DNA of 64,000 nucleotides from Ignavibacteriales bacterium (GTDB taxonomy: Bacteria > Bacteroidota > Ignavibacteria > UBA10030 > SZUA-254): positions 62,001 to 126,000 of the forward strand of contig JACRMQ010000007.1 in NCBI GenBank assembly GCA_016214905.1. The letters are read 5' to 3'. This document shows positions 60,569 to 64,000 of this stretch, piece after piece (within the stretch, counting starts at the first letter, position 1; each line of letters opens with the position of its first letter). The position numbers and the translations under genes are program-made. A model generated the notes under the pieces. It was not told the DNA's origin. It made no database searches and worked only from the letters and a program-made list of their open reading frames with translations.

Positions 60569-60606
60569 AAAAAATAAAAACGCCGCATCAAGTGAATGAT
60601 GCGGCG
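60569..60606 (-). terminator. Intrinsic terminator of the multihaem cytochrome gene
   Basis: On the minus strand a perfect ten-base stem CGCCGCATCA/TGATGCGGCG (60597-60606 with 60581-60590) and a six-base loop are followed by a T-rich run (TTTTTATTTTTT). This is the textbook form and lies about 25 bases after the cytochrome stop. Confidence 0.9.
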
Positions 60607-60631
60607 CTGACTATTTACTTAAGAAATATTA

Positions 60632-63007
60632 TTACCGTCCGTGACATGAAATACACGATTTCCCGCTCTTTGAAGTATGGGCAGTCGATACTGCATCAAG
60701 CTTCGATTGCTTTTTACTTGTTTTAGTGGGATGAGCCAGCGGTGTAACCTTGTATGATGGTTCTGGTGATACCGCCGCGAATGTTGTTTTCCCCAGTATA
60801 GTGCTAACAGTAAGCGATGCTGTTGCCTGTAAAGGAAGTGGATTTTCTGAAACACCAACGCTCAACCCACTTTGTTCGGGGATAATTTTCCCGGTGTGCA
60901 ACCGCGAGTAGGCAGTTCCAGTTCCGGCATACATTGAAAGGAATTGTCCTGTTTGGCTGAATGACCCAATCACGTTACCATTTACTTTGAGTGACCACGA
61001 ATTGACAATACAATAATCCGGACTGCCGGGTGTTGTTGAATTGTCGGATGGCCAGGTATCCCGAATCGTAAGGATCCATGTTCCGGCAATCGATTCACCA
61101 TTAAATATTTGAAGCGACTGAGCTGTTGATCTCGGGCTGGCACTTCCGTGCTGGCTGTTCGGGGATTCGGAATTATACCAGAAGATTAAATTTGCCAACC
61201 AGTCATTCCAATCGAATACTTGAACGTGAACAGTTTTTCCTGTTTCCACGTGTGTCAAATCAAGTTCAATATCACCGCGATAATGATGTGTAATGTTGGC
61301 ATACACATCGAGGTCCTCGATAGTTGTGTTATCTGCAACGGTCATAGTACTTGTTACCGTAATAAGCCCCCAACCACCGTTGCCGTTTGGATCGTAACCA
61401 ATCGAACGATCGAGCGGTATGGGATCGGTTTTGTTATACTGCGATCCGGCACTACCGCCGCTTGTTGCGGCAAAATTCCATTCCGAGAGTTTGTTAACTA
61501 CCGCTTGTGTGTACTGTGTATACGCCGGTGTGACAATCGCATTAAACTGTTGAGCTCCTCCAACTGTAATTGTAGAACTCGCCGGTGTGACTGAAAGCGT
61601 CTTTCCGGTCAGCGAGATCGATGCGAGCGATGGCAATGTTGAAGAATGTGGCAAATGACAATCTGTACAGAGCGCACTCAGAGTTACTCCTGTATGTGTT
61701 GGCGCTGCAACATTGGAACCATTATGACACCTTAGACAGAAATCGTTTCTTGTCCCCGTCCATGGTTGTGTGATATTTTGCGGATCAATCAACAGATTTG
61801 TTGTATGATTAAGCAGATGCGGATCGTGGCAATTGCGGCAGAAAACATGCCCATCGGTTGTGCTGAGACTGTCCGGATCGACGTGGCTCGACCGGCTGGT
61901 AATGCTTCCACCTAAATATGCAACACGAATATTCTCCATATATCTATTGCTGTAGCTGACATTCGCTCCTCCACCATGACATCCATAGCAGTTGTTTTCT
62001 TCATTTCCATCAAGATAGAAATTCGAGAAAAATTTAATCGGTTGTTGATGTCCGTTCGATTGATCGTGGCAGGAATGGCAGCCATCTCCGAGTCCATACC
62101 CAGTATGCGCGTTGGTACTTGTTAAGAATGGACGCTTGTCTGATGCAATTTGTCCGCCGAGGCGATACTGCGAATCGGGATTATTGCCATCGTGGCATTT
62201 CAAGCACCAGGTTGTTCGGTTATTCCCGATAGATGTGGAATCATTTCGTACACCCGCACTGTCCGGTACAGCTCTCAAGTTTACAACTCCATTAGCGTGT
62301 TGGTCGGGATAATCGTTATGACAAATCAAACAATTATTATCGGCGGGTGTAGATAAATTTCCGCTTGAATTGAACGTCAATGGATGATGCGGCTTGCTCG
62401 ATGAGAAATCTGTTCCTATTGGTCTGCGAGAACCCATTGCAGATTGATGACATCCCAAACAATTTGGACCACCCCCCGCGCCGGAGAAGCCCACGTCGTG
62501 CGGATGGCATGTTGTGCAATTTGTGCCGTTGTTATGAGGTTGACCGGTTCCATCTTTTCGGTGATATGCTGTTGTGGTGTGACAAACCTCGCACACACCA
62601 TCGCGTGTTGCGTCGCCATCGGCGAATGAATTTGCACCCGAAGTAGCCATTAGCTTTACCGAACGTCCGTTGATATTCGTTTTAACAAGTTTCGAATATG
62701 CGGAACCGTAGGATCTTTCTTGTTCCTGATGATGCGGATTATGACATGTGGTGCATGCTAATCCGCGATGAGATTCAGCCGCGGGTGCGGTTGAACCGTT
62801 GTGGCAACTTAAGCATTTATCGTTAAGCGTAGCCGGTTGATTGGGCGCATTGTATCCAAAATGGCAATCAGCACAGAGATTTGATAATTTTGTTGAATCT
62901 CCATGCGGCGCATCGACACTTAATATACTGGATGGTGTTTGTGCCAACGCAAATACCGACGCGATAAGGATGAGTGAGCTGATTAAAATTATTCTTCGTG
63001 ATTGCAT
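60632..63007 (-). CDS. Exported 14-haem cytochrome c with a P-domain
   Basis: The 791-residue protein has a signal peptide (residues 4-23, ending ALAQ). Fourteen CXXCH haem-binding motifs are visible: thirteen between residues 45 and 451, and one at the extreme C-terminus (CISCHGR, residues 785-791). Between them lie a Big_2-like Ig region (KTLSVTPASSTITVGGAQQFNAIV) and a proprotein-convertase-type P-domain at about residues 535-675 (NTTIEDLDVYANITHHYRGDIELDL, then NGESIAGTWILTIRDTW). Multihaem cytochromes pass electrons across or beyond the envelope; P-domains bind proteases or other proteins. The gene follows the NHL protein by 11 bases and ends in a strong terminator. Confidence 0.88.
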   Translation of the reverse strand: MQSRRIILISSLILIASVFALAQTPSSILSVDAPHGDSTKLSNLCADCHFGYNAPNQPATLNDKCLSCHNGSTAPAAESHRGLACTTCHNPHHQEQERSYGSAYSKLVKTNINGRSVKLMATSGANSFADGDATRDGVCEVCHTTTAYHRKDGTGQPHNNGTNCTTCHPHDVGFSGAGGGPNCLGCHQSAMGSRRPIGTDFSSSKPHHPLTFNSSGNLSTPADNNCLICHNDYPDQHANGVVNLRAVPDSAGVRNDSTSIGNNRTTWCLKCHDGNNPDSQYRLGGQIASDKRPFLTSTNAHTGYGLGDGCHSCHDQSNGHQQPIKFFSNFYLDGNEENNCYGCHGGGANVSYSNRYMENIRVAYLGGSITSRSSHVDPDSLSTTDGHVFCRNCHDPHLLNHTTNLLIDPQNITQPWTGTRNDFCLRCHNGSNVAAPTHTGVTLSALCTDCHLPHSSTLPSLASISLTGKTLSVTPASSTITVGGAQQFNAIVTPAYTQYTQAVVNKLSEWNFAATSGGSAGSQYNKTDPIPLDRSIGYDPNGNGGWGLITVTSTMTVADNTTIEDLDVYANITHHYRGDIELDLTHVETGKTVHVQVFDWNDWLANLIFWYNSESPNSQHGSASPRSTAQSLQIFNGESIAGTWILTIRDTWPSDNSTTPGSPDYCIVNSWSLKVNGNVIGSFSQTGQFLSMYAGTGTAYSRLHTGKIIPEQSGLSVGVSENPLPLQATASLTVSTILGKTTFAAVSPEPSYKVTPLAHPTKTSKKQSKLDAVSTAHTSKSGKSCISCHGR

Positions 63008-63018
63008 GGGTCCCGTCC

Positions 63019-64000
63019 TTATTTAAGAAATACCATTTTGTTTGTTTGGGAATATTTATCTCCCACCTGAAGGTGATAGAAATATATTCCCGAGGCAACC
63101 TGCGCACCGGCGCTGTTTCTGCCGTTCCACTCTATCGTGTACATTCCGCCTTTATAATCTTCGCTTGCCAGTACAATCACTTCGCGTCCAACGATATCAT
63201 AAATTTTTAATGTTACCCATCCCGGCTCCGGCAGCGAAAATTTTATCTGCGTTGCAGGATTGAATGGATTTGGAAAATTTTGTTCAAGAGAATATTTTTG
63301 AGGTAATCCAGATGGGTCAATTTTAACATCCGTAGTTGTTTCAATCGAATATTCTTTTATGTCGGAACCTGCAGTTGAAGCAATGAATAAATTATTTTTT
63401 TCAGAAATTGTTACACCGGCAGGAACTCTGAATTGAACCGCGTGTTTACCGTCTCTCCCAAGAAATCCAATATGGTTGCCTTTATTGTCAAAAATCTGCA
63501 GGTGGTTCAAACCCGCGTCGGAGATATAAATTCTATCATCACTGTCTGTGGCAATTCCACTCATTCGCGCAAATGTTCCCACAAACTGCCAAACTCCATC
63601 GGTTTGTTTGATGTGTTCACCGAAACCCCTTAAGAATTGTCCGTTTTTCGAAAACACCTGAACCCTTGAATTACCGGCATCAGCAACAAAAATTTCATCT
63701 GCCGTTTTGCTTATAGATATTCCGATGGGAAAACGTAACTGTCCCGGATTGTTACCAATCATTCCGATATAAGATTGAACCTCTCCGGCTGCGTTCATAA
63801 CGGTAACCCGGTGCATTTCACGTTCAACAATAAAAACCGATCCGTCGCCATCTACCGCCAAATCTACAACCGATTGAAATGAGATTCCATGTTGAGAGGA
63901 ACGATCTATTATAGTTCCAGATTGATCCAGCGTGAGAACATCGTTGCTTGTTCCGACAAGAATATTACCGTCGCTTTTAAAGGCAACGCTCGTGGGAGGT
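63019..64000 (-). CDS. NHL-repeat protein with T9SS sorting domain, 5' end beyond window
   Basis: The reading frame remains open to the window edge, so the start is missing; 327 residues are visible. NHL/six-bladed beta-propeller repeats are seen as VFIVEREMHRVTVMN, IFVADAGNSRVQVFSK and IYISDAGLNHLQIFDN. The last 85 residues form a T9SS sorting domain (LEQNFPNPFNPAT, then ASGIYFYHLQV...KMVFLK). The protein should be anchored or secreted at the outer surface. It is co-transcribed with the multihaem cytochrome 11 bases downstream; NHL propellers can dock partner proteins, which fits a shared electron-transfer or surface assembly. Confidence 0.85.
   Translation of the reverse strand, partial: PPTSVAFKSDGNILVGTSNDVLTLDQSGTIIDRSSQHGISFQSVVDLAVDGDGSVFIVEREMHRVTVMNAAGEVQSYIGMIGNNPGQLRFPIGISISKTADEIFVADAGNSRVQVFSKNGQFLRGFGEHIKQTDGVWQFVGTFARMSGIATDSDDRIYISDAGLNHLQIFDNKGNHIGFLGRDGKHAVQFRVPAGVTISEKNNLFIASTAGSDIKEYSIETTTDVKIDPSGLPQKYSLEQNFPNPFNPATQIKFSLPEPGWVTLKIYDIVGREVIVLASEDYKGGMYTIEWNGRNSAGAQVASGIYFYHLQVGDKYSQTNKMVFLK

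Follow-up and report, generated by a model that had tools for sequence, protein, structure and literature searches.

What does a P-domain contribute to a multihaem cytochrome, and how do bacteria of the Bacteroidota type place such cytochromes on their surface? Both questions are raised by a gene close to the end of the window, by which we mean the whole analysed stretch of 64,000 nucleotides (positions 62,001 to 126,000 of contig JACRMQ010000007.1, G000:C7:62001-126000, in the Ignavibacteriales bacterium assembly GCA_016214905.1). The initial annotation proposed that the product of this gene could form a surface electron-transfer unit together with an NHL-propeller protein. The present analysis favours, with a probability of about 0.55, the explanation that a triad of genes encodes an accessory outer-surface module of a Uet-like porin-cytochrome electron-transfer system. 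The triad offers a concrete, testable candidate for the surface placement of multihaem cytochromes, which combines an adhesion-type domain on a cytochrome, an operon tie to a propeller that is T9SS cargo, and a synteny tie to a putative porin cluster. The features on which the argument is built are as follows.

60632-63007, minus strand: predicted 14-haem c-type cytochrome with a P-domain, 791 amino acids, with a Sec-type signal peptide at about residues 1-22
61640-62938, minus strand: haem half of the cytochrome (residues 24-456), 13 CXXCH motifs, about 33 residues per haem
60974-61456, minus strand: P-domain (about residues 518-678, Pfam core 564-673), located by Pfam, alignment and predicted fold
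60683-60802, minus strand: variable linker (about residues 736-775) before the last haem, 15-45% identity between orthologues
60635-60682, minus strand: C-terminal haem site (residues 776-791), comprising the invariant H777 and C785-x-x-C788-H789
60579-60608, minus strand (L001 609-580): terminator-like stem of 12 pairs with a T-run behind it, immediately past the end of the cytochrome gene
63019-64000 and on to 64224 (L001:3020-4225), minus strand: NHL beta-propeller protein with a T9SS type A sorting domain, 401 amino acids
64236-65012 (L001:4237-5013), outside the window and upstream of the NHL gene: tetrahaem cytochrome, 258 amino acids, or shorter if started from an internal ATG

The cytochrome, its P-domain and its operon

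The open reading frame at 60632-63007 is complete within the window; the 5' end that had been placed beyond it belongs to the neighbours, as the genes that run past it are the NHL gene (to 64224) and the tetrahaem gene. Fourteen CXXCH motifs are found at residues 45, 65, 85, 139, 164, 183, 226, 268, 310, 340, 390, 424, 447, and 785, compared to a mean of 0.05 and a maximum of 2 in 2000 shuffles of the same protein. The first half gives Pfam matches over the cut-off to Cytochrome_C7, paired CXXCH, and cytochrome c3. Comparison of the orthologues described below shows 23 invariant histidines outside the motifs, 17 of which lie in the haem half as candidate distal ligands, while H777 stands beside the last haem; this number would allow each haem to be bis-His ligated. 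On the basis of the motifs, the candidate distal histidines and the export signal, the product is predicted to bind haem as a multihaem c-type cytochrome, and the numbers of motifs and histidines support the conventional view that electrons pass through bis-His haems. A profile search matched no sorting domain on the cytochrome, whose chain ends in CISCHGR, and no lipobox was found. The haem half returned nothing significant in a sequence search against the PDB, solved filament cytochromes included, and it has no usable model, since the full-length AlphaFold prediction from four sequences reached a pLDDT of only 30.

The P-domain assignment passes a profile search, with 26.8 bits for PF01483 (P_proprotein) against a gathering score of 21 over residues 564-673, and the predicted fold of residues 518-678 agrees with it. 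This fold matches the furin P-domain (4omc_B) with a Z score of 13.6 and an rmsd of 2.0 Å over 118 residues, followed by the Kex2 P-domain with a Z score of 12.7, and chains other than P-domain proteases begin at a Z score of 9.7. In the model of residues 455-791, high confidence is confined to the P-domain, with a pLDDT of about 80-96 across most of the domain. The core D-x-N/D-V...H-x-Y-x-x-D-L...F-N-G...G-x-W-x-L...D is common to the cytochrome and to 25 P-domain stretches aligned from other genomes of the phylum. Both the fold and the conserved core are like those of the P-domains known from kexin and furin, from secreted bacterial proteases, and from T9SS proteins (PF01483), whereas a protease domain is absent here and the P-domain is joined to a multihaem cytochrome instead. 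It should be mentioned that a six-frame whole-genome search with PF01483 missed this P-domain, so that negatives from that search are weak for PF01483 and the profile A1 searches are the better test. Of the domain order first described, in which thirteen CXXCH motifs lead through an Ig-like region to a P-domain and a fourteenth motif, the haem motifs and the P-domain are borne out. The Ig-like region is unsupported because no profile exceeded its cut-off there, the only trace being a Big_2 fragment of 14.2 bits against 22.8 that covers 28 of 79 positions.

Co-transcription with an NHL protein bearing a T9SS signal, which had also been claimed, agrees well with the gene layout. The partner has NHL repeats at 79.7 bits and the sorting domain TIGR04183 at 41.2 bits (cut-off 23), and the same genome encodes the T9SS translocon protein SprA (SprA_N, 176 bits). 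Reading past position 64000 for further cytochromes, as had been advised, uncovered the tetrahaem gene that completes the operon. Its order is tetrahaem cytochrome, NHL/T9SS protein, and P-domain cytochrome as the last gene, with gaps of 11 nucleotides in between. On the upstream side, a 10-pair terminator-like stem lies between a Spy/LTXXQ-like gene and the tetrahaem gene. Stems of this kind match a consensus and prove nothing by themselves, and shuffled sequence gives about as many, although few this long. The short gaps and the terminator-like stems on both sides indicate that the operon most likely consists of these three genes. The upstream gene, which encodes a 172-amino acid LTXXQ/Spy-like protein, was considered as a further member and ruled out by the stem that separates it.

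Conservation of the fusion

A peptide-pattern scan with both halves of the protein over 84,980 species identified three orthologues of full length and a single relative that has the haem part alone. The three orthologues are 62-64% identical to the window protein over the full length and have the same domain order, which answers the suggestion that this order be sought elsewhere; each has 15 haems and lies in the same triad with the same gene order. In the window cytochrome, a 12-residue gap (at about 61650-61710) removes one haem site; the site is present in all three orthologues, also in that from the same genus, and the window copy is thus read from the alignment as having lost one haem relative to its 15-haem orthologues. 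Altogether, the P-domain cytochrome occurs in 4 of the 98 genomes searched of the order, and these four separately assembled genomes belong to two families. Among the class (391 genomes) and the phylum (395 genomes), no further full-length match was found; the other matches there cover the P-domain or the haem part alone. The proteins with P-domain matches contain no CXXCH and are secreted proteins of the T9SS or protease type, consistent with the earlier remark that P-domains usually occur elsewhere than on multihaem cytochromes. The NHL partner bears its T9SS domain in all four carrier genomes. Taken together, the distribution of the orthologues and the conservation of the triad show that the fusion is genuine, conserved, and confined to few genomes.

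Identity to the window protein varies along the chain: it amounts to 66-68% in the haem half and 70-74% in the P-domain, with 42-56% in the stretch between them, and it drops to 15-45% in the linker that follows the P-domain before reaching 44-75% in the last 16 residues. All four orthologues share H777 and the last CXXCH without change. Such a profile points to selection maintaining both the P-domain and the last haem, which would be joined by a tether whose sequence may matter little. Modules related to the haem half were also seen in a gammaproteobacterial MAG protein (L005:3-3708), in which MopE-like repeats are followed by at least 20 CXXCH motifs and which is open at the contig ends.

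A Uet-like cluster in the carrier genomes

On a different contig from the triad, the genome of the window has a conserved cluster of NHL, tetrahaem, and multihaem genes (contig 8, G000:C8:15000-38000; L032, L031), of a type proposed to move electrons through the outer membrane. It encodes, in order, an 8-haem cytochrome, a 312-amino acid protein, an NHL protein, a tetrahaem cytochrome, a 562-amino acid putative barrel, an NHL protein, a tetrahaem cytochrome, an NHL protein, and a larger multihaem protein, and continues with two cytochromes bearing T9SS signals and a 13-haem protein. The two T9SS-signalled cytochromes (L031:6880-8445 and L031:8845-11583) have 9 and 8 CXXCH motifs and T9SS type A sorting domains of 36.9 and 38.9 bits (cut-off 23), and from these domains they look like T9SS cargo. 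Versions of the cluster are also present in G001, G006, G002, and G030 (among loci L091, L092, L093, L094, and L095). A shorter one in G036 provides the synteny link, as the triad there sits between a 12-haem and a 13-haem gene in a cluster that also holds 8-haem, NHL, tetrahaem, and putative porin genes. In addition, the NHL and tetrahaem proteins of the window operon are distant paralogues of those of the cluster.

The 562-amino acid protein is a putative beta-barrel, judged from its context and from a weak signal of strand periodicity, with 20 peaks compared to 15.4 +/- 2.4 in shuffles. It has no Pfam (E 0.001), NCBIfam, or PDB match, and an MtrB-type porin was accordingly not recognised. 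Of 60 genomes searched, 11 have the putative porin, all four carriers of the P-domain cytochrome among them; this co-occurrence has P = 0.0007 by genome and 0.004 by genus, values from which relatedness is not removed.

Uet, as published, comprises a porin together with tetrahaem, NHL, undecahaem, and trihaem cytochrome components (PMC10734462). The cluster described here resembles the Uet of Tenderia and Gallionella, as outlined there, in that one locus combines NHL, tetrahaem, larger multihaem, and beta-barrel genes with a trihaem gene nearby. A barrel candidate and tetrahaem, NHL, and trihaem genes are present, and neither an 11-haem protein nor a PPIase was seen at the cluster; 8-, 10/12-, 13-, and 14/15-haem proteins and a redoxin-like gene occur instead. 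The likeness is one of gene make-up, and the accessible part of the Uet paper describes neither a P-domain fusion nor a T9SS signal. Loci with NHL and cytochrome genes have also been published for Desulfovibrio ferrophilus (PMC9769857) and for Geoalkalibacter, where mineral binding was suggested (PMC12016550). Like the locus here, they place NHL genes beside multihaem cytochromes thought to exchange electrons extracellularly, but neither P-domains nor T9SS are reported for them in the portions of the two papers available to us. Porin-cytochrome complexes of the Geobacter/Shewanella type have been reported in Ignavibacteria (PMC7399161). These likewise combine multihaem cytochromes with a putative outer-membrane barrel, whereas the barrel candidate here lacks a Pfam family and NHL proteins regularly belong to the locus. 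The literature searched, which leaves most papers in subscription journals outside, yielded nothing that pairs P-domains or T9SS with multihaem cytochromes. Collectively, the parts and the type of gene cluster are known, and the fusion is one for which no report was found.

Placement and possible role of the triad

The claim of a surface electron-transfer unit can be divided into two parts. Electron transfer is supported by the tetrahaem partner, the synteny in G036, and the co-occurrence with the putative porin; surface placement has two indications, namely the T9SS domain of the NHL partner and the kind of proteins in which related P-domains occur. If the triad acts as an accessory outer-surface module, the 13 clustered haems would form a short bis-His electron wire, and the NHL propeller, exported by T9SS, would be a scaffold on the cell surface or bind minerals or a partner there. 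The P-domain could be a rigid structural or docking insert, behind which the last haem, on its variable linker, would act as a tethered contact site that exchanges electrons, in either direction, with an extracellular substrate or a partner. A docking role of the P-domain and the propeller, as first suggested, is plausible. A more specific form, in which the P-domain is a dedicated dock for the exported propeller, the partner carries or holds the cytochrome at the surface, and the last haem makes contacts on a flexible arm, is rather doubtful.

What counts against the outer-surface module is that a cytochrome without T9SS domain and lipobox might remain periplasmic; a search for GspD likewise gave no match above the curated cut-off, with 84.9 bits against 351. 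The lack of family or structure matches for the putative porin, the missing model of the haem half, and the separate contigs of the triad and the main cluster in the window's genome also weigh against it. It is possible, though not probable, that the cytochrome is a periplasmic reservoir or shuttle that feeds the porin complex, with the P-domain as a mere folding cap and the NHL protein alone leaving by T9SS. The signal peptide is in line with this, a periplasmic place in porin complexes has also been proposed for large multihaem proteins (PMC10734462), and the absence of a T9SS domain may be meaningful because two other cytochromes of the same genome do bear one. Set against it are the related P-domains of the class and phylum, which sit in secreted proteins of the T9SS or protease type, and the sorting domain that the co-transcribed partner has in each of the four genomes. 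The isolated C-terminal haem on its linker, conserved in 4 of 4 orthologues, could alternatively bridge to the next subunit of an extracellular cytochrome filament, the P-domain then being a decoration or a polymer contact. An OmcE homologue does lie at a Geoalkalibacter locus with NHL genes (PMC12016550). This explanation is nevertheless very unlikely, as the haem half, for which a usable model is lacking, has no sequence match to solved cytochromes, including filaments of the OmcS, OmcE, and OmcZ type.

A multihaem redox enzyme with a P-domain, such as a nitrite or hydroxylamine enzyme, is brought to mind only by a non-significant phmmer similarity of the haem stretch to hydroxylamine oxidoreductase (E 0.4). 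Carrier-type families are the only ones over the cut-off and the enzyme models fall far under theirs, which makes this highly improbable. The rarity of the protein, in 4 of 98 genomes, might point to a relic or misassembly in which a P-domain was joined to a cytochrome by accident. Such an origin has a negligible probability and is rejected because the same join is shared by four separately assembled genomes from two families, with both parts equally conserved. The outer-surface module in a Uet-like system is retained as the best explanation for the triad.

A second large multihaem locus lies on the same contig as the triad (L033:5631-18676, G000:C7), where proteins with 4, 13, 19, 6, 8, and 11 haems are encoded, and the genes around it read like components of a quinol-oxidising respiratory system.
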